DNA of 40,008 bases from a bacterium (lineage in GTDB: Bacteria; Verrucomicrobiota; Kiritimatiellia; RFP12; UBA1067). Both the position numbers and the translations under genes were made by a program. The notes beneath the pieces are model-generated. The model saw only the letters and a program-made list of their open reading frames with translations. It was not told where the DNA came from and did not search any database. The DNA lies in NCBI GenBank assembly GCA_025360845.1, contig JANYBJ010000203.1, forward strand, positions 1 to 40,008. The letters run 5' to 3'. This document shows positions 1 through 22,338 of the stretch, one piece after another (within the stretch, counting starts at the first letter, position 1; the number at the start of each line of letters is the position of its first letter).

Positions 1-293
1 ATTTGACGGTTTTCGTTCGAAGCGTTATGCGCGAAAGCGCAGAAATCGGTTTTCAGGTCCAGACTCTTCTACATGCGTTATCCTTGTTAACGGAATCATT
101 CAATCAATTCAATCGTGTTGCAACGATACACCATTCCGGCACTCAAGTGCAAAGGATTTTATGCGTGTTTGAAAAATGGGAAACGCACGAGAACCGTACT
201 CCGACCTCGATGTGATTACGGGGCAAGAAGGTCGCGGGAAACAAGAGATCCACCCAGTCAAATCCCCGTGAAAGGTGGAAGTGTCACACGTGT
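1..293. other. Non-coding stretch at window edge
   Basis: I see no convincing gene here: the short open frames have no ribosome-binding site and no recognisable protein. It is the 3' flank of the minus-strand hydrolase that ends at 294. The only local structure is a perfect 5-bp hairpin with a GAAA tetraloop at 28-41 (TGCGC/GCGCA), which has no T-run and so is not a clear terminator. Confidence 0.5.
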
Positions 294-1595
294 TCAGTTG
301 TCCGGGGTTACTTGAACCTGGGTGGAGAGGCGGTAGTCGTTGCCCGAAGCGGTTGCGAACGTCATTTCGGCCATAAATGCGGTGAAGCCGTTGGTCGGTG
401 TCTTGACCTCTGCGGAGACGCGGGTCGCGTTCAGCTCCAGCGTCAGCGGCCGGCTGGCCCACTGCGCTTTGCGGAAGTCGCGGATAGGGGAAGAGGCGGT
501 CCAGAGCAACGCCTGCTTGGCTGGCCGGTCAGAAGTGACCGTGATAGACGCTCCCCCGTCGCCCTTCATCCGCCACGTCAGTTGCGGCGGCGCCTGGCGG
601 TCTGCCATCATCTGCAGGAAGGCGGCGAGGGTTTGGACGGCTTCAACTGTGCCGCCCGCGCCGTGCCCGGCGTTGGGAGACTGGTACACCAATTTGGGCG
701 CGGGCAGGTCGGCCCAGTAGTGGCGCAGGGCGTCGACGGTCCAGTAGGGGTCGTTGGTGCCGAGCAGGAGCAGCTTGGGCATGGTGAGGGAGGCGCGGTA
801 GCTGTAAGGATCGACAATGCCGCGCAGTTTGACCATCTCGGGCAGGTCCATCTTCTCCACGAGGCCGATGTCGGTGTAGTCGCTGATCTTCTCGCTCTGG
901 CGGCCGTAGACCCGCTGCGCCCACTGGGTCTGAGCCTTCATGTTCAGCATGTCGATCACGACCGGGGCGATGCCGCAGACGCGCTTGTCAACCGCTCCGG
1001 TCAGCCAGGTGGTCCAGCCGCGCTTAGACGCGCCGGAGACAACGAAGCGTCCGATTTTTTGTTGGCGCTCGGCCAACGCCCAGGCTTGGATGGCGTCCAT
1101 GGCGCGGATGGCGCTTTTGGTCATCGGCAGCAGCAGCGGCCATGTCTCGTCTCCGGTTTTCAGGTATTGGTCGAAGGTGTATGCGATGAGGCCATCCTCC
1201 TGCTTGTTGCCGAAAAGGGGCTGGTTGGGGACGCCGGACACGATGGCCACCCAGGCGCCGCTGCGCTCGGCCAGCAGTTTGACGGTCGGTAAAACATCTT
1301 CTCCGACTCCGGCCGTGATCTCCAGAAGGGCGATCGAAGGATTCCGCAACTCGCGGGGCCGGGCGATATAAAGCGTGTGGGTCCAGACGCCGCCGCGCCA
1401 GGTTTGCGAGGTCAAGTCGAGCGTGGCGACGGCGAGGTCGCCCATCATTTTGTTTTCGCGCACGCTCCACTTGAAGCTGGTGTCCGCATTTCGGACATAG
1501 TCTTCCAGCGCGCCCGCTTGCAGGGACGTGCCGGTGAGCAGAAGCAGTGTCACGCAGGCCGATGCGAACAGGACCGGCAGAGATCTTTTCGTCAT
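294..1595 (-). CDS. Secreted PqaA-family (PhoPQ-activated pathogenicity-related) alpha/beta-hydrolase
   Basis: The protein of about 433 residues starts with a typical signal peptide (Lys-Arg, a hydrophobic run, then a Leu-Gln-Ala cleavage-like site), so it is probably exported. The mature part has the alpha/beta-hydrolase layout of the PhoPQ-activated pathogenicity-related family (PqaA). A nucleophile-elbow segment GASKRGW follows a run of small hydrophobic strands. LLLGTNDPYW could hold the acid, and NAGHGAGG the histidine. The family has no firmly established substrate; it is named after a PhoP-regulated Salmonella gene, and that regulation need not apply here. I chose the ATG at 1595 because GGAA lies just upstream and it gives the cleanest signal peptide. 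An in-frame ATG at 1607 lies almost exactly where transcription should begin and could be used as a leaderless start. The gene is monocistronic and divergent from the HAD-PfkB cluster. Confidence 0.8.
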   Translation of the reverse strand: MTKRSLPVLFASACVTLLLLTGTSLQAGALEDYVRNADTSFKWSVRENKMMGDLAVATLDLTSQTWRGGVWTHTLYIARPRELRNPSIALLEITAGVGEDVLPTVKLLAERSGAWVAIVSGVPNQPLFGNKQEDGLIAYTFDQYLKTGDETWPLLLPMTKSAIRAMDAIQAWALAERQQKIGRFVVSGASKRGWTTWLTGAVDKRVCGIAPVVIDMLNMKAQTQWAQRVYGRQSEKISDYTDIGLVEKMDLPEMVKLRGIVDPYSYRASLTMPKLLLLGTNDPYWTVDALRHYWADLPAPKLVYQSPNAGHGAGGTVEAVQTLAAFLQMMADRQAPPQLTWRMKGDGGASITVTSDRPAKQALLWTASSPIRDFRKAQWASRPLTLELNATRVSAEVKTPTNGFTAFMAEMTFATASGNDYRLSTQVQVTPDN

Positions 1596-14774: not shown

Positions 14775-15473
14775 ATGAAAAGAAATTTTTGCGTGCAGGA
14801 ACGCGTCACCGTATGTGTGGCAACGACCATTCTTTTTATGGCGGGTTCGGTTTTTGCGCAGGTGAAACCGGCACAGCCGCGCTTGGCGCCGGCGGGCGGC
14901 CAACCGGTCGTCGCTCGAGGCGAGAAAGGCGATAAAAGCGAGGCCGTGGAGATCAAACGTATGCCGCCGCCCAACAAGACGGCGATGATCCGGACGCCCG
15001 AGTACAAATACAACGTTCAGAACACCATGCCCCCGGTCAGCAAGAAACCGCGCGAGTGGGCGCTTTTCGAGGTGAAGTATGAGAGCGCCGCCAAGTGGAC
15101 GGACGAGCTGACGTTCATTTATCATGTGATGACCAAGGGTAAGAACGAAGAAGGCAAGGAAGCGTACAGCTATTACACCGCAACCCTTCGTTATGTCGAC
15201 ATCCCCAAAGGGGAGCACATGAGCTGCGTGGCGATCGCTCCGAGTCAGATCGAGCGCTACGGCGAACCGGTGGCCTTGGCTTTGGAAATTACCAGCAAAG
15301 AGGGCAAGGTGCTGGACAGCAAGTCGGAAGCGGTTATGGCACTCCCCAAGGAGTGGTGGAAGGACAGCAACGTGTTAGACAAGCCGCAGGTGACCCGTCG
15401 TAACGGGTTGATGGATCGTTCGAAGACCCCGTTCGCGTTGGTTAACGTGGACGATTACGAGGTGGTGCAATAG
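14775..15473 (+). CDS. Amuc_1102-like exported protein of pilus-like locus
   Basis: The 232-residue protein starts with a signal peptide (MKRNFCVQ, a hydrophobic run, then SVFAQ). After a Pro/Ala-rich linker of about 60 residues it has a beta-rich domain (WALFEVKYESAAKWTDELTF, YYTATLRYVDIPKGEHM, VALALEITSKEGKVLD). This layout, and its place directly before the PilM-like gene, match Amuc_1102 of Akkermansia, whose product has an immunoglobulin-like fold. It is presumably a periplasmic partner of the secretin machine. GGAGAAAG before the ATG is the ribosome-binding site. Its stop shares one base with the GTG start of the next gene. Homology to Amuc_1102 is inferred from layout and position; I could not align it. 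Confidence 0.65.
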   Translation: MKRNFCVQERVTVCVATTILFMAGSVFAQVKPAQPRLAPAGGQPVVARGEKGDKSEAVEIKRMPPPNKTAMIRTPEYKYNVQNTMPPVSKKPREWALFEVKYESAAKWTDELTFIYHVMTKGKNEEGKEAYSYYTATLRYVDIPKGEHMSCVAIAPSQIERYGEPVALALEITSKEGKVLDSKSEAVMALPKEWWKDSNVLDKPQVTRRNGLMDRSKTPFALVNVDDYEVVQ

Positions 15474-17167
15474 TGTTCTCCTCTGACCGTATACTTGCGC
15501 TCAACGTTGGCGCGAGCAAGATCGTTTTAGCCGAGTATCTCGTCAAAAGCGGACGTCCGCCGGAGTTGATCAATTACGGCACGTCCGCCTTGGCCGTTGA
15601 TCCTGAAAACGAAAGCGGTGCGGGCGCCCATCTGCTCGCCGCTATCCGTGACGTCATGAAGACGCACGGGATACGCCCTGCGCCGTTGATGTTGTCGCTG
15701 TCGGGCCAGGTGGTTTTCCCCCGTTTCGTGCGGTTGCCTGCCGTGGGAGAAGACAAACTGTTGCAGATGGTGCAGTACGAGGTCGAGCAGAACGTCCCGT
15801 TCCCGATCGACGAGATCGTATGGAACCACCAGTTTATCGGCGACGCCTCCTCGGGCGAGCAGAGCGCGATGATCGTGGCGGCAAAGATCGAGAACGTGCG
15901 CGAGATCACGGACCGTGTGGTCGAGGCGGGCCTGGAGCCCGAAATTGTGGATGTGGCCCCGATGGCCCTGTACAATTGCCAGCGGTACAATTACGCCGAT
16001 TTGCCCGGCTGTACGGTTCTGCTGGACATCGGCGCGCGTTCGACGAATCTGATTTTCGCCGAGGATGAGAAGATCTACAGCCGCTGCATCCCGGTGGCCG
16101 GCAATGCGATCACGCAGGAGTTGGCCAAGAGTTTTCAGATCCCGTTTGCCGAGGCCGAAGCGCTGAAGCGCGAGAGTGCTTTTGTGGCGCTGGGCGGCGT
16201 GTATGCGACGGAAGACGAGACTTCGGAGCGCATCTCCAAAATCGTGCGCAACGTGGTGACGCGCCTGCATGCGGAGATCAGCCGCTCGGTGAATTTCTAC
16301 CGCAGCCAGCAGGGCGGCAGTGCGCCGGTGCGGGTGTTGCTGACCGGCGGCTCGTCGGTGTTGCCGCATTTGGACACGTTCTTCCGCGAGAAATTGCAGG
16401 TCGATGTGGCCTATCTCAACCCGTTCACGAATGTCGGATTGAGCAACCGCATCAACCGCGAGAAGGCGGGAATCGACGCGTTCGTGCTTGCCGAGACCGT
16501 GGGACTGGCCCTGCGGCGTTCGCTGGCCTGCCCGATCGAGATCAATCTGATGCCGCCCGAGATCGTCAAGCGCAAGTCGTTCAAAAAGCGCATCCCGTTC
16601 TTCGGCTTGGCGGCAGCGGGCATTTTCCTGAGTCTCGGCATCTGGACCATGTACGAAAAGCAGATGAACAAGTTGTACGAGTTCCAGAAAGAGCAGGTCG
16701 ATTCCAAATTGGCGGTGTGCAAGACGAAGCAGGCCAGCCTTGCCAAGGTCGAGAAGTCGAAAGCGGTTGTCCAGCGCAAGGCTGAGGCGGTGCGGAACGT
16801 GATGCAGGAACGGACCGTGTGGCTCAAACGGGTGGACGCGATACGCAAAAGCCTGTTTGACGGCATGTGGTTGACGGAAATGACGCCGGTGAAAGATGCG
16901 AACGGCACGGTCACCGCGGTGCGCATCATGGGCCGCGGTTGGGCGGACAAACTCAAGGCGATCGAAGAGAAGGCCAAGGCTGCGGGGCGTACCGCCACGG
17001 CGGTTGAGGAACTGCGCGACCGGCTGAAAACCCAGTCGGTGTTCGGCAAAGAGGCCCAGGACGTCAAGATCGTCGGCGTGAAAGATGTCGAGGCGTATTT
17101 GATTGAATTCACAATCGAGGCGGCTCTGGCGACGGCGGCTGACCCGAAGGATGCGACTGCACGATGA
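15473..17167 (+). CDS. PilM-PilN fusion protein (Amuc_1101-like)
   Basis: The 564-residue protein joins two type IV pilus assembly modules. Residues 1-350 are an actin-like PilM/FtsA-type ATPase (LALNVGASKIVLAEY, FPRFVRLPAVGEDKLLQMVQYEVEQNVPFP, LLDIGARSTNLI, LLTGGSSVLPHL). Directly after it comes EINLMPPE near residue 357, the peptide that in separate PilN proteins binds the PilM groove. A basic stretch, a single membrane segment (about 373-393), a coiled coil (395-450) and a periplasmic ferredoxin-like domain follow, as in PilN. The fusion therefore ties the cytoplasmic ATPase to the inner-membrane platform in one chain. The start is GTG 15473, overlapping the preceding TAG by one base. It overlaps the next gene by ATGA (17164-17167). 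It probably organises the Amuc_1100-like and 1099-like proteins. Confidence 0.85.
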   Translation: MFSSDRILALNVGASKIVLAEYLVKSGRPPELINYGTSALAVDPENESGAGAHLLAAIRDVMKTHGIRPAPLMLSLSGQVVFPRFVRLPAVGEDKLLQMVQYEVEQNVPFPIDEIVWNHQFIGDASSGEQSAMIVAAKIENVREITDRVVEAGLEPEIVDVAPMALYNCQRYNYADLPGCTVLLDIGARSTNLIFAEDEKIYSRCIPVAGNAITQELAKSFQIPFAEAEALKRESAFVALGGVYATEDETSERISKIVRNVVTRLHAEISRSVNFYRSQQGGSAPVRVLLTGGSSVLPHLDTFFREKLQVDVAYLNPFTNVGLSNRINREKAGIDAFVLAETVGLALRRSLACPIEINLMPPEIVKRKSFKKRIPFFGLAAAGIFLSLGIWTMYEKQMNKLYEFQKEQVDSKLAVCKTKQASLAKVEKSKAVVQRKAEAVRNVMQERTVWLKRVDAIRKSLFDGMWLTEMTPVKDANGTVTAVRIMGRGWADKLKAIEEKAKAAGRTATAVEELRDRLKTQSVFGKEAQDVKIVGVKDVEAYLIEFTIEAALATAADPKDATAR

Positions 17168-18129
17168 AACTTCATCAAATCATTTTGGTTGTCTGTGGTG
17201 TGCTCATGGCGGCCGTCTGCCTGGGAGCGGGCTGGTTCCTGTTTTCCGCGATGCTGGCCAAGAGCGCGGCGGCGTCGGAGCGCAATGAGAAGTATGACGA
17301 ACTTCGAGGCATCTACAACGCGAAGGTTTTCCCAAGCAAAGAGAATATCGTCCGGGTGAGCGAGGATCAGAAGGTGCTCGAGGCGTGGTTGGTCACGGCG
17401 TCGAACGTGGTCCATAAGGGGGACTTGCAGGTCGATCAAAAAACCCCGACCGGTTTCAAACAGGCGCTCCAGACGACGGTCCGGAAGTTGTCGGCGCAGC
17501 CGGGTGCGATCAACGGAAAGGTTGTTGCGGCAGGCTTCAATTTCGGGTTCGATAAATACCTCGGCTCCTCTGACAGTCTTCCCGCCTCCGAGCATGTGGA
17601 GCGGCTCAACCAGCAACTCACAATCATCGAGTTGTTGTGCAAGGAGCTGTATGCCGCCAACATTCTTTCATTGGCGACGGTGACCCGCGAGACGTTCGAC
17701 GAGGTGGGCGCTGACCAGAAACCGCAAGAGGAGACGGGCGGTCGCCGGAGCAAAAGAAATGCGAATAAGCCGTCCGCTCAGTCGGTGCCGTCTCCCCTGG
17801 CCGCGGGCGGCAAACAGAACGAGTTCTTCACGAAACAGCGTTTCACTTTCGAGTTCAATGCGCGCCCGCCGGCGTTCATTGACGCGTTGAACCGGTTGGC
17901 GGCGATGGACCTTTTTGTTGTTGTGGCCGAAACCGAGTTCCGTAAGACAGACGATGTTCTGGGAAAACGCGCCGCAGCCAAGCAAAAAAAAGCGGGCGTA
18001 AAAGAAGATGCGGCTGTCGTTGACCCGGCCACGCTGACGCATATCGAGCGGATCGTGACGGATCCCGAGCTTGAGCCGCCGGTGAGCGTGAAACTTGACA
18101 TCGATGTCTACTCATTTAACGGAGTGTAA
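17164..18129 (+). CDS. Amuc_1100-like pilus-associated membrane protein
   Basis: The 321-residue protein has the architecture and near-identical length of Amuc_1100, the Akkermansia envelope protein reported to signal through host TLR2. It has one N-terminal membrane anchor (residues 6-30), a helical/coiled-coil stretch, and a first alpha-beta domain (FKQALQTTVRKLSAQPG to LCKELYAANI). A disordered linker of about 40 residues rich in Gly, Ser and Asn follows. The second alpha-beta domain (FTFEFNARPPAFIDALNRLAAMD) ends SVKLDIDVYSFNGV. This is a PilO-like fold arrangement. It is presumably the partner of the PilN half of the preceding fusion, in the periplasm. The insertion 'GGRRSKRNANKPSAQ' in the linker is a local feature. 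Family assignment is from domain order, matching conserved segments and gene context. Confidence 0.8.
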   Translation: MKLHQIILVVCGVLMAAVCLGAGWFLFSAMLAKSAAASERNEKYDELRGIYNAKVFPSKENIVRVSEDQKVLEAWLVTASNVVHKGDLQVDQKTPTGFKQALQTTVRKLSAQPGAINGKVVAAGFNFGFDKYLGSSDSLPASEHVERLNQQLTIIELLCKELYAANILSLATVTRETFDEVGADQKPQEETGGRRSKRNANKPSAQSVPSPLAAGGKQNEFFTKQRFTFEFNARPPAFIDALNRLAAMDLFVVVAETEFRKTDDVLGKRAAAKQKKAGVKEDAAVVDPATLTHIERIVTDPELEPPVSVKLDIDVYSFNGV

Positions 18130-18132
18130 GTC

Positions 18133-19203
18133 GTGGCCTTGAAAATCAACTCTAACCTTCCTTTTCTGCGTCAGTACGACAAGCTCATTGCGGTCGTCGT
18201 TCTGATCTTCCTGCTGGTTTCGCTTTTCTATCTGACCAATGCCGGTGCGAGGCGCAAGCAAGGTGAGTCGAATTACATTCAGCAGCTCGATAACCTCAAG
18301 CCGAAATCCGTGGTTACCCCGCCGATGGACATGGCTGAGTATGAGGCGGCCGTCCGCACGGCGCGGACGCCCCTTCAGTTGGACGCGCCGGATGTTCAGC
18401 AGGCGGGCTTTCTGACACCCGAGCGGCGGGTCAGCTGCGTGTCGGTCACCTGTCAGAAACCGATTCCCTATGCGTCGGAGAAGTGCCCTTTCTGTGGCGC
18501 GGTACAGCCCACCCCGCCCGAGTTCAACACGGAGCGCGATTCGGATAATGACGGAATTCCTGACAAGGTCGAGATCGCATGGGGCCTCAACCCGTTGGAC
18601 CCGTCCGATGCGAAGGGTGATCTCGACAACGACGGCTTCAGCAACCTTGAAGAGTATCTGGCCAAAACCGACCCGAAAGATCCCAAGTCGCATCCGGCTT
18701 TGGTCAATCTGTTGCGCGTCAAAGAGTTGCGCGGTAAACGGCTGCCGCTGATCTTCAGCGCCGTGAACAAGATGCCGGACGGCAAAATGCAGTTGGTGTT
18801 CAACCAGATCGGCCCGAATGCACGCACGTTCTGGGTGCGCGAGGGCGATAAGATCGGGGAAACGGGTTATGTGGCCGGCAAGTTGGAGGCCAAAACCGAA
18901 AACCGGGAAAACGCCAACACGCCGGGCATCCCAAAGAAAGTCGATGTTTCGACGGTTGTTGTCAAACGTCTGTCTGACAACAAGGAAGTGACGTTGAAGA
19001 TCAACGAAGGCAGTAAAAACACAGATGTTGAAGCGGTCATCGTGTTGCCGTTGGACAACACCGAGTATACGGTGCTGGAAAACGGCACGTTCAAGATGCG
19101 CGATGAAACATACCGTGTTGTTTCTGTCAATACTGAGACGACGTCGGTTGTGATAGAGAACGAGGCGAGCGGCCAACAAAAAGTTGTGCGCAAGCTTGAT
19201 TAG
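18133..19203 (+). CDS. Amuc_1099-like protein with zinc ribbon and calcium-type repeats
   Basis: The 356-residue protein has an N-terminal membrane anchor (about residues 17-36), then a four-cysteine ribbon (SCVSVTC, later KCPFCG). Two thrombospondin-type-3/EF-hand-like calcium motifs follow: DSDNDGIPDKVE and DLDNDGFSNLEE. Two beta-rich domains come next (FWVREGDKIGETGYVAGKLEA and FKMRDETYRVVSVNTETTSVVIENE), which resemble PilP/GspC-type secretin-contact domains. The start is GTG 18133 with GGAG 8 nt upstream. It fits the Amuc_1099 position between the Amuc_1100-like and secretin genes. It probably bridges the inner membrane platform and the secretin. The zinc and calcium binding are predictions from the motifs; a periplasmic four-cysteine ribbon could instead form disulfides. 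Confidence 0.75.
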   Translation: MALKINSNLPFLRQYDKLIAVVVLIFLLVSLFYLTNAGARRKQGESNYIQQLDNLKPKSVVTPPMDMAEYEAAVRTARTPLQLDAPDVQQAGFLTPERRVSCVSVTCQKPIPYASEKCPFCGAVQPTPPEFNTERDSDNDGIPDKVEIAWGLNPLDPSDAKGDLDNDGFSNLEEYLAKTDPKDPKSHPALVNLLRVKELRGKRLPLIFSAVNKMPDGKMQLVFNQIGPNARTFWVREGDKIGETGYVAGKLEAKTENRENANTPGIPKKVDVSTVVVKRLSDNKEVTLKINEGSKNTDVEAVIVLPLDNTEYTVLENGTFKMRDETYRVVSVNTETTSVVIENEASGQQKVVRKLD

Positions 19204-19284: not shown

Positions 19285-22200
19285 ATGACGCACAGTTCAA
19301 GGTGGTTGTTAGTTCTGAGTGTTTCTGTCGTTGCTTGCGGTGCAATGACTTGTCTGTACGCGCAAGATGACCTCGAAGCGCTGTTGAAGGATTTAGGTGG
19401 GAAACAGAAACCTGCGGAAGCTGTGCCCGCGCCCGCCGTGGCCGAGAAGCCTGCCGAGGCCGCGCCAGTCGCCGCTCCGGCCGCACCCGCGCCCGCGCCC
19501 GCCGTGGCCGAGAAGCCCGCCGCGGCCGCGCCTGTAGAGGCTGCGCCTGCCGCCGCTGCGGCACCAGACACAGGTGATACGGGAAGTCTCGTGTCCGAAT
19601 TGCTGACACTCGAGACCCTGCGTCGCAAGTCTTTGGACGATCATGGTTACGCGTCATTGGAGGTTGCCCGTAAAGCGTTGCGCGACGGCGATTACCCTTT
19701 GGCCCGCGAGCAGTATAAACAGACGCTGAATTTTATCGGCAACCGCCCGGACACGCTGGCGGCACGCGAGGAAGCCTCCGCAGGTATCGCAGAGGCGTTC
19801 TACCGTGACGCCAAGCTGGCGATGAAGAAGGGTGATTACGAAAAGGCGCTTCCCTTGGCGTCACAGGCGTTGGAGCGCGGCCATCCGCAAGCCGGACGTC
19901 TGGTCGAGACGCTTCGTAAAGAGCCCTCTAAGACAACCGCCGATGCGTCGAGCATCACTCACCGCATCAACGACCCGGAATATAAAGAGCAGAGTGAAGA
20001 GATCCGCCGCCTCCTCCGCCGTTCCCGTCAGTATTTCACGACGGCCGAATATGACAAGGCGTTGGAGCAGTGTGAGCTGGTGTTGCGCGATTATCCCTTC
20101 CATGTCGAAGCGATGGAACTGCGCGAACGCATTGCGGATCGCATGAAGGATGTGGCCGATGTGGAGTTTGAAGCCACCCGCAGCCTGATGATCAAGGATG
20201 TTCGCAAAACCTGGACACCGGAGCGTTACGCGATTGAAAGTTCACAACTGCCGAAGGGCAAAGGTGACGTGACCTCGAAGCAAAAGGTCGCCACGATCAG
20301 TGGAACCAAGACGTCCGAGCAGATGGTCCAGCAAAAGTTGCGCGACATTGTGATTCCAGAAGTTTCTTTCCGCCCGCCCGCCACGATCATTGATGCGGTT
20401 GATTTCTTCAAGCAGGCCAGCCGGGACTACGATAAGCCGGAGATTCCGGTGGAGCAGCGCGGTGTCAATCTGGTTCTGAAATTGGCCACGGGAGCGACTT
20501 CAGCACCCGCCGCAGATGCGGCCGCCAGCGCCGACCCGTTCGCGCCTCCCGCCGCTGCGGCTGGCGCTTCCGGCGCGCCGGCGATTCAGGCGTTGAGCGC
20601 CCGCTTCATCAACCTCTATGACGCGCTGAAGTTGGTCTGCGATGTGACCGGCATGAAGTTCCGTATCCGCGGCAACATCGTGATGATCGTGCCGGCGAAC
20701 GAGCCCGACGATGTCTTGGTGACCCGTTCGTATAACGTTTTGGCGACCTTGACGGAACGCGTCTCTTCGGCTCAGAACGAGCTGGGTGCAGCGGGCGGGG
20801 GTGAAAAAGGCGGCGACAACACCTTCATGAAAACGGCGAACATGGATTCAAAGGAAAACTGGAAAGTCTTCTTCCAGAAGATGGGCGTGGTGTGGCCCGA
20901 GGGCTCATCGATTTCGTACATGGCCTCCATCGGTAAGCTGCGCGTGACCAACACCTCGGATCAACTCGCCGTGTTCGAACAGGTGCTCGAGGATTTGAAC
21001 GTGACGCCGCGCCTGATCGAGATCGAGGCCCGCTTTGTGGAAGTCTCGCAGAAAGACCTCAATTCGCTCGGTTTTGAATGGTTGTTGAACAGCGATTTCA
21101 GTTTAGATGCGGGCGGGTTCTTGAGCAAGACGCTGGGTCTGCGCGGTTTCGGTTCTGAGGCGACTCCGCAAACGCAAGCGACATATATCGATGCGAACGG
21201 TGTTACCCAAGGGTTGACTGACTTGAACGGTAATCCGATTTTGACGTCCGGCAATCGTACTATTTCGAAATATCAGGCACCCGGTTATATTCCTCCGCAA
21301 TACAACACGCCGGGTGACCCATCGAGCGGACTTAATCCGAACACGGGTATTCCCGGGTATATGGTAGCCCCGAATCAGAATGCAAACGTGAATGCGATCG
21401 ACGGCGTTGCCTATAGCACGGGCACCCGTTATTTGAGCACGACGGGCAACCCGATCGCGGGTGAGGGCGCCAACATCAACGACAAGTTCATGCGCGTCAA
21501 CGCCTTCTTGGGCAATGCGGATGTTTCGATGATCCTTCATATGCTCAGCCAGCGTTCAGACACGGACCTGCTCTCCGCCCCCAAAGTGGTGACCAAGTCG
21601 GGGCAGGAGGCGGTGATGAAGGTCGTGACCGAGTATATCTATCCGACCGAGTTCCAGGTGACCGGTCTGCAGAGCGGCGGCGGCAACAACGGCGGCTCAT
21701 CGACGACGACGGGTGCCGTGGTCGAGCCTCAGAACTTCGAAATGCGTGAGGTCGGCGTGATCCTGCAGGTCGTGCCCGAGGTTTCCGCCGAAGGCCAGAT
21801 GATCAACCTGATGCTCAACCCGCAGGTGGTCTCCGAGCCGGTGTGGAAGAACTACGGCGCGAAGATCCCGATTCAGAAGCAGCCTACTGCGGTTTTAAAC
21901 CTCTCCGGCTTAACCGGCGCAAACCTTTCGCAACTTACAGGACTTACTGCGCCCGAGCCCACCTACATGGAGTTGCCGATGGAGCAGCCGTTCTTCCATG
22001 TGCGGTCGGTTCAGACCCAGCTCTCAATCTACAACGGCGCCACGGTGGTGATGGGTGGTTTGATAACCGAGGCGCGCACGACGATCGAGGATAAGATCCC
22101 GTTCCTGGGTGACCTGCCTTACATCGGACGCCTGTTCCGCAGCAAGTCCGAGCAATCGGAAAAGCGCAACCTGTTGGTATTCGTGACGGCGCGTCTTGTT

Positions 22201-22338
22201 GATCCTGCCGGGCGCTCGGTGCGCACGAGCGGCGGCGAGTCGGCGCTGATGTCCGGAGCGGGCGCGTCGGGCGCAGGTCAGGCACATACGCAGACGACGA
22301 CGACTCCTGCGGCGACGCCTGAAGCTGCAGCCAAGTAA
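19285..22338 (+). CDS. Large secretin with N-terminal TPR region (Amuc_1098-like)
   Basis: The 1017-residue protein begins with a signal peptide ending in YAQD. A Pro/Ala/Glu-rich stretch with a 22-codon duplication follows (residues 48-100), then tetratricopeptide-like helices (about 105-290). Secretin N domains come next: a PEVSFRPPATIIDAVDFFK N0-like strand, then ALKLVCDVTGMKFRIRGNIV and IEARFVEVSQKDLNSLGFEW. The C-terminal secretin pore domain spans about 830-965, with VPEVSAEGQMINLMLNPQVV and GGLITEARTTIEDKIPFLGDLPYIGRLFRS. It forms an outer-membrane ring channel. The N-terminal TPR region makes it much longer than PilQ (about 700) and matches the Akkermansia secretin. AGAGGAG lies before the ATG. 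A strong terminator follows the gene. Confidence 0.9.
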   Translation: MTHSSRWLLVLSVSVVACGAMTCLYAQDDLEALLKDLGGKQKPAEAVPAPAVAEKPAEAAPVAAPAAPAPAPAVAEKPAAAAPVEAAPAAAAAPDTGDTGSLVSELLTLETLRRKSLDDHGYASLEVARKALRDGDYPLAREQYKQTLNFIGNRPDTLAAREEASAGIAEAFYRDAKLAMKKGDYEKALPLASQALERGHPQAGRLVETLRKEPSKTTADASSITHRINDPEYKEQSEEIRRLLRRSRQYFTTAEYDKALEQCELVLRDYPFHVEAMELRERIADRMKDVADVEFEATRSLMIKDVRKTWTPERYAIESSQLPKGKGDVTSKQKVATISGTKTSEQMVQQKLRDIVIPEVSFRPPATIIDAVDFFKQASRDYDKPEIPVEQRGVNLVLKLATGATSAPAADAAASADPFAPPAAAAGASGAPAIQALSARFINLYDALKLVCDVTGMKFRIRGNIVMIVPANEPDDVLVTRSYNVLATLTERVSSAQNELGAAGGGEKGGDNTFMKTANMDSKENWKVFFQKMGVVWPEGSSISYMASIGKLRVTNTSDQLAVFEQVLEDLNVTPRLIEIEARFVEVSQKDLNSLGFEWLLNSDFSLDAGGFLSKTLGLRGFGSEATPQTQATYIDANGVTQGLTDLNGNPILTSGNRTISKYQAPGYIPPQYNTPGDPSSGLNPNTGIPGYMVAPNQNANVNAIDGVAYSTGTRYLSTTGNPIAGEGANINDKFMRVNAFLGNADVSMILHMLSQRSDTDLLSAPKVVTKSGQEAVMKVVTEYIYPTEFQVTGLQSGGGNNGGSSTTTGAVVEPQNFEMREVGVILQVVPEVSAEGQMINLMLNPQVVSEPVWKNYGAKIPIQKQPTAVLNLSGLTGANLSQLTGLTAPEPTYMELPMEQPFFHVRSVQTQLSIYNGATVVMGGLITEARTTIEDKIPFLGDLPYIGRLFRSKSEQSEKRNLLVFVTARLVDPAGRSVRTSGGESALMSGAGASGAGQAHTQTTTTPAATPEAAAK
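19425..19532 (+). repeat. 42-nt direct repeat in the secretin Pro/Ala region
   Basis: Two copies, 19425-19466 and 19491-19532, differ at two positions and are 66 nt (22 codons) apart. They encode repeated AVAEKPA segments. The in-frame period means slippage would change linker length without frameshift. Confidence 0.75.

Follow-up and report, generated by a model that had tools for sequence, protein, structure and literature searches.

The window, meaning the whole stretch of 40,008 nucleotides analysed here, carries a single uninterrupted frame of 564 codons plus stop at 15473–17167, whose domain matches mark it as a fused pilMN-type gene of the Amuc_1101 family; this and all features given below lie on the plus strand unless stated otherwise. 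PilM and PilN are two separate proteins in the best-studied bacteria. In the 564-residue protein encoded here, a PilM domain (residues 1–350) leads through a four-residue linker to an INLLP-type peptide (355–361), then to a membrane helix with a coil, and finally to a PilN/GspL-type periplasmic domain. The gene starts with GTG, which overlaps the upstream TAG stop by one base (AATAGTG), and its stop overlaps the start of the next gene in ATGA. That upstream gene is Amuc_1102-like (14775–15473; NF042424, 40.1 bits against a cut-off of 55). Downstream follow an Amuc_1100-like gene, proposed to encode a PilO-like partner of the PilN part (17164–18129; NF038287, 66.8 bits against a cut-off of 180, and a profile of 20 relatives), an Amuc_1099-like gene (18133–19203; NF042425, 91.2 bits, above the cut-off of 50) and an Amuc_1098-like secretin gene (19285–22338; PF00263, E = 1.1e-34; NF042912, 448.7 bits against a cut-off of 750). 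TSP3-type repeats (PF18884, E = 5.2e-9) occur in the Amuc_1099-like protein, where CVSVTCQKPIPYASEKCPFC also forms a short stretch resembling a zinc ribbon, with a UPF0547 match below cut-off. Two minus-strand frames, of 401 amino acids (16411–17616) and 280 amino acids (15527–16369), overlie the fused gene and are probably by-products of its codon make-up and not genes. The fused protein is present once in the host genome (5.17 Mb in 326 contigs), and its best named matches come from Verrucomicrobia and Kiritimatiellae metagenome bins, with a top identity of 91%.

We assigned the PilM domain to positions 15473–16522. The Pfam PilM model (PF11104) covers residues 52–349 (E = 5.1e-38; 131.3 bits against a cut-off of 27), and the pilM model TIGR01175 covers residues 10–348 with 157.1 bits, above its cut-off of 133. 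The Amuc_1101 family model (NF045709, Amuc_1101_fam) matches over 4–510 of 608 with 479–480 bits, below its cut-off of 650. The actin-like fold of the predicted structure is closest to solved PilM: the top three VIA-align rows are all PilM (Z 33.2–35.0), and 2ych_A aligns at Z 35.0 with an rmsd of 2.3 over 325 residues. PilM described as a separate soluble protein does not fit this chain, to which a membrane and a periplasmic part are attached. The preliminary description of this DNA spoke of a PilM ATPase domain, which goes beyond what we see, namely an actin-like fold and probable nucleotide-binding motifs. The window protein has N at residue 11 (15503–15505), which we take to be where the actin-like fold carries its first nucleotide-binding aspartate. 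Among 146 distinct family proteins, 82 have D at this position, 62 have N and two have E, and the branches may thus differ in how they handle nucleotide.

We then examined how far the fusion extends in the phylum. Among 288 genomes taken from the phylum, 264 contain a match to the fused protein at E ≤ 0.001 and 24 contain none. Leaving aside ten motor-gene loci and six comparator loci, we examined 180 loci; four frames run off their contig, and each of the 176 complete ones is at least 500 amino acids long. These complete frames, among which one genome may recur, reduce to 146 distinct proteins after deduplication. Most of the 146 either came out of searches that ordered their matches by resemblance to the fused protein or were picked by hand from those lists, so the set is not a random sample; 30 loci were drawn by the pilM model, independently of the PilN half. 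The same model, which is blind to that half, gave an over-cut-off match in 149 of the 288 genomes, and among the matches listed all lie in frames of 511–883 amino acids bar one of 404, which sits at the start of a contig (G247:C16) with its match beginning at base 6. No unfused PilM was found in the phylum among the complete loci and the pilM-model matches listed. The preliminary description had asked whether such proteins are always fused; all 176 complete relatives examined are. Its central proposal, that PilM and PilN are joined in one chain through the docking peptide, is thus borne out by the domain order, by this survey and by the conservation of the peptide. Unfused comparators from outside the phylum were few, comprising three plasmid-collection records, E. 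coli K-12 and three solved PilM sequences.

The junction consists of the linker, residues 351–354 (LACP; 16523–16534), which is extended in the model, and the PilN-type docking peptide, residues 355–361 (IEINLMP; 16535–16555), which aligns with the PilN part of the PilM:PilN chimera structure 5EOU. EINLMPPE had been placed near residue 357, correctly, as it lies at 356–363. Across an alignment of the 146 distinct proteins (about 70 effective sequences), L359 is invariant and P361 is present in 137. Position 357 carries I in 125 proteins, the rest having L, V or F, and position 358 is N in 101, S in 26, D in 13, E in 4 and A in 2. By conservation INLMP is the top 5-mer past residue 352 and number 39 among all 559 in the protein; positions 349–352 and 363 are far more variable, and the adjoining C353–P354 is conserved too. 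The stretch from residue 345 to 362 spans 18 positions in 143 of the 146 proteins, 19 in two and 17 in one. The N-termini of separate PilN proteins show the same pattern, with INLLPW in Acinetobacter and Aeromonas and INFLPW in E. coli HofN. The conservation of the peptide is beyond chance, and its retention at a near-fixed place makes the join look permanent and built in. Six relatives that have lost the proline (L023, L024, L025, L027, L028 and L118) carry INLVSQ or close variants; five of them belong to one genus in the same order as the window and form a natural set bearing on the role of this residue.

To place the peptide in three dimensions we used a structure model of the full protein (mean pLDDT 82.6, pTM 0.61, 18 sequences). 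The last PilM helix ends at residue 350, residues 351–361 are extended, and one long helix runs from 362 to 460; mean pLDDT is 79 in the block 351–360 and 83 in the block 361–370. The closest comparison is with 5EOU, named P. aeruginosa PilM:PilN1-12 with both names on its chain. A phmmer alignment crosses the junction of the chimera, the distance from ALR to the motif being eight residues here and nine there. With residues of 5EOU numbered as sequence index minus 3 (MLGLIKKK starts at index 4), assuming that PilM is numbered from 1, its INLLP falls at 361–365, and VIA-align pairs residues 5..362 of the model with 10..366 of 5eou_B, the register expected from the motif as judged from the range end points. 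The model fits PilM with PilN bound, both in 2ych (Z 35.0) and in the chimera (5eou_B; Z 33.2, rmsd 3.4), better than free P. aeruginosa PilM (5eox, 5eoy and 5eq6; Z 27.2–27.9, rmsd 5.2–5.3), which suggests that it is in the PilN-bound form, a reading that comes from a single monomer model and from a method, AlphaFold, that may be biased towards closed PilM whatever the sequence. In the study of the chimera, PilM is said to close on PilN binding.

From these features we favour constitutive docking in cis, with a probability of roughly 0.7, over a ring or filament built by domain swapping. The one-chain PilMN would serve a type IVa-like pilus machine as its PilM–PilN unit: its PilM domain would be cytoplasmic, the INLLP-type peptide, held after the last helix by a short and near-fixed linker, would most likely fold into the groove of its own chain, and the chain would cross the membrane once, with the PilN/GspL-type periplasmic end pairing with the downstream Amuc_1100-like (PilO-like) protein. 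We infer that PilM would be held in its PilN-bound form, with one PilM per PilN, so that there would be neither an on/off exchange of PilN nor self-association of PilM through its N-terminal tail.

The preliminary description had left room for both outcomes, docking within the chain or swapped between neighbours into a ring or filament; the first part finds support in the monomer model, the 5EOU register and the short, near-constant linker, and the second finds none in the monomer model. A swap, in which the peptide docks into the PilM groove of a neighbour so that PilM domains assemble into a ring or filament at the membrane, would agree with the canonical machine, for which the available portions of PMC6916266 and PMC13039148 propose a PilM ring beneath the membrane. 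We nevertheless regard it as unlikely, as such a ring is possible without a swap, the monomer model reaches the PilN-bound form and matches the chimera register on its own, and a linker of near-constant length (143/146) is what a short reach within the chain would require. The chimera, moreover, is reportedly monomeric.

Docking in cis also makes a prediction about the other end of PilM, since a groove that is always filled would render the N-terminal tail useless. Free PilM reportedly dimerises through its own N-terminal motif in the same site. In 134 of the 146 fused proteins no possible start codon yields 15 or more residues before the residue-11 position, and in the remaining 12 a start giving 12 or fewer residues exists. 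PilM has 15 residues before the matching D in P. aeruginosa (MLGLIKKK...) and Acinetobacter, and more than 15 in Aeromonas and Acetoanaerobium. The pattern G-[LIMF]-[LIFYW]-x-[KR] occurs just before the residue-11 position in none of the 146 fused proteins; the Acinetobacter tail, LRLYRK, fails it as well, so tail length is the firmer sign. Judged from these sequences, among which the unfused proteins are few, the usual PilM N-terminal tail appears to have been lost, a sign consistent with docking.

Beyond the peptide, a probable membrane segment lies at about residues 375–394 (16595–16654), found with a hydrophobicity window and contained in the model helix 362–460; the best 19-residue hydrophobic window begins 18–23 residues past position 355 in 146 of 146 relatives. 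Residues 395–460 (16655–16852) are predicted by the model to form a long periplasmic helix, probably a coiled coil, and residues 461–556 (16853–17140) a ferredoxin-like periplasmic domain of the PilN/GspL type, assigned from the model, the VIA-align rows and the PilN matches. Residues 440–556 predicted alone reach a pLDDT of 94.6. That the residues after 350 should resemble PilN was a point on which the preliminary description had staked its reading, and three comparisons bear on it. With a threshold of E ≤ 0.1, the Pfam PilN model (PF05137) matches 13 of 36 relatives, the strongest at 4.5e-5, with no match in the window's own segment; hhalign of the C-terminal part against four unfused PilN-type proteins gives 93.9% (E = 1.6e-7); and the top five VIA-align rows for the periplasmic domain are PilO, PilO, XcpY, XcpY and a pullulanase-secretion inner-membrane protein (Z 8.0–8.8), a small margin given that unrelated ribosomal S6 circular permutants score Z 7.4–7.8. 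PulL, EpsL, PilO and Amuc_1100 appear in the rows below. Foldseek alone returned no match for the periplasmic domain at E ≤ 0.001, and the C-terminal half had no relative by sequence among solved structures in the PDB. Taken together, the evidence supports a PilN/GspL-type domain without deciding between PilN and GspL. A PF05137 search of the host genome found no separate PilN, an absence that counts for little because the same model misses the window's own fused PilN half.

The same domain raises the question of whether the protein is a type II secretion GspL, that is, a fusion of the PilM–PilN type serving secretion in which the peptide is a leftover. GspL has the same domain order in the accessible parts of PMC4471445 and PMC10191384, the periplasmic domain lies nearer to XcpY (Z 8.6), PulL (7.4) and EpsL (7.3) than to T. 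thermophilus PilN (5.5), and the GspL model TIGR01709 picks up a single relative out of 18 (E = 5.3e-5). Against this, the cytoplasmic part exceeds the pilM cut-off (157.1 versus 133 bits), Pfam T2SSL (PF05134) reaches only 12.8 bits against a cut-off of 25.5, and the host genome has a PilT above cut-off. In addition, the fused family retains an INLLP-like peptide, which is absent from E. coli K-12 GspL, the one GspL examined. We find a GspL somewhat less probable than even the swapped arrangement and did not adopt this identity, given the T2SSL score below cut-off, the missing peptide in E. coli K-12 GspL and the TIGR01709 match in only 1 of 18 relatives.

We dismiss as very improbable the idea that the peptide no longer docks and is kept merely to form a structural turn next to the membrane, where PilM leads into the membrane helix. 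This idea is favoured by the loss of P361 in 9 of 146 proteins, by the 45 proteins of the 146 in which S, D, E or A replaces N358, and by the conservation of the neighbouring C353–P354, unpredicted by docking alone, whereas the succession of a hydrophobic residue, an N-like residue, an invariant L, a hydrophobic residue and P is that of separate PilN and the model is in the bound form.

For a one-chain PilMN docked in cis, the proposed periplasmic partner is encoded immediately downstream. A frame of at least 150 amino acids starts between 40 bases before and 200 bases after the stop of the fused gene in 141 of 141 loci (five of the 146 were excluded for too short a flank), in 53 of them with a four-base overlap. 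Of these downstream proteins 20 were scanned, and the Amuc_1100 family model hits every one of them (E ≤ 0.001); a profile of the 20 finds solved Amuc_1100 structures (6kny, E = 7.6e-13); phmmer with the window's own downstream protein (17164–18129) found no relative among solved structures. This neighbour has one N-terminal hydrophobic segment, and the Amuc_1100 structures 6kny and 6lad surface in the search with the PilN domain (Z 6.6 and 5.9). The Amuc_1100-like neighbour looks like a PilO-like part of the inner-membrane platform, a reading at odds with the outer-membrane location published for Amuc_1100, as given in the available part of PMC5332112.

Elsewhere in the host genome, a PilT family protein scores 453.4 bits, above its cut-off of 319.1, and a PilB-type motor 635 bits, just below its cut-off of 675.65. 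A motor cluster on contig 230 (L197:3555-8056) encodes a PilB-type motor, PilT and a second PilB/GspE-type motor in a row, and another locus encodes a further PilB-type motor followed by a PilC-type protein. The second PilB/GspE-type motor has a weak MshE-like cyclic-di-GMP motif at its start (25.6 bits, cut-off 38). The motors and the PilC-type protein make a retractable type IVa-like pilus machine likely in the host, as far as gene content can tell.

Several known systems resemble parts of this arrangement. Separate PilM and PilN (P. aeruginosa 5EOX, T. thermophilus 2YCH, Acinetobacter L154) share with the fused protein the PilM fold and model score, the INLLP-type peptide and the PilN-type domain; they differ in forming two chains instead of one, and the PilM tail of the fused protein is shorter by about five residues and lacks the motif. 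The engineered PilM:PilN(1-12) chimera 5EOU likewise carries the peptide on the PilM C-terminus behind a similar linker (nine residues versus eight), but is man-made and has neither membrane nor periplasmic parts. GspL, PulL and XcpY combine a PilM-type domain, one membrane helix and a ferredoxin-like periplasmic domain in one chain, as here, and PilMN is named as the counterpart of GspL in the part of PMC4471445 available; the fused protein is set apart by a cytoplasmic part that scores as PilM and by the docking peptide missing from E. coli K-12 GspL. In Clostridioides difficile, PilM and PilN form a single fused protein according to the portion of PMC6916266 available, which also indicates a different PilN motif; this organism has no outer membrane, and the comparison is by description only. 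Another record, from Acetoanaerobium, a relative of C. difficile (L155, NZ_CP154629.1), has a separate PilM of 339 amino acids and a PilN of 186 starting MRDFNFF, and so differs from the C. difficile fusion; this 2.6-Mb record is labelled a plasmid, a label that may be wrong.

A PilM–PilN fusion as such is therefore already known, from GspL and from C. difficile PilMN. The literature we found on such fusions, as far as its accessible parts go, covers only GspL/PulL and C. difficile, with no phylum-wide version that has an outer membrane and the docking peptide. We see an even chance that the following picture holds as a whole: throughout a phylum with an outer membrane, PilM never parts from the PilN peptide in its own chain and no longer has the competing N-terminal tail, binding and release of PilN is not a required step of pilus action, and Amuc_1101/MUL2B is a PilMN that pairs in the periplasm with the immunomodulatory Amuc_1100. 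The dynamic model attributed to McCallum in 2016 reportedly has PilN going on and off PilM during pilus cycles. A natural, phylum-wide fusion that keeps the peptide would be evolution's own experiment on this point: if such pili extend and retract, exchange of PilN is not needed.

Also among the closest known systems is Amuc_1101 (MUL2B) of Akkermansia muciniphila. The window protein is collinear with its family, NF045709, over residues 1–510, the locus shares the neighbour families Amuc_1102, 1100, 1099 and 1098, and 18 of 18 relatives match the family model; the window protein, below the cut-off of 650, is a distant member. Amuc_1101 is called FtsA in the available parts of PMC5332112 and PMC6828834 and a PilM protein, MUL2B, in that of PMC13174399. 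"PilN" is not a term in the main texts of the Amuc_1101 literature that we found, and a search for Akkermansia together with PilN and PilM returned no paper. Our comparison suggests that Amuc_1101/MUL2B, so far FtsA or PilM, should be relabelled PilMN, and that the likely place of Amuc_1100, studied as an outer-membrane immunomodulator, is as its PilO-like partner in the inner-membrane platform.
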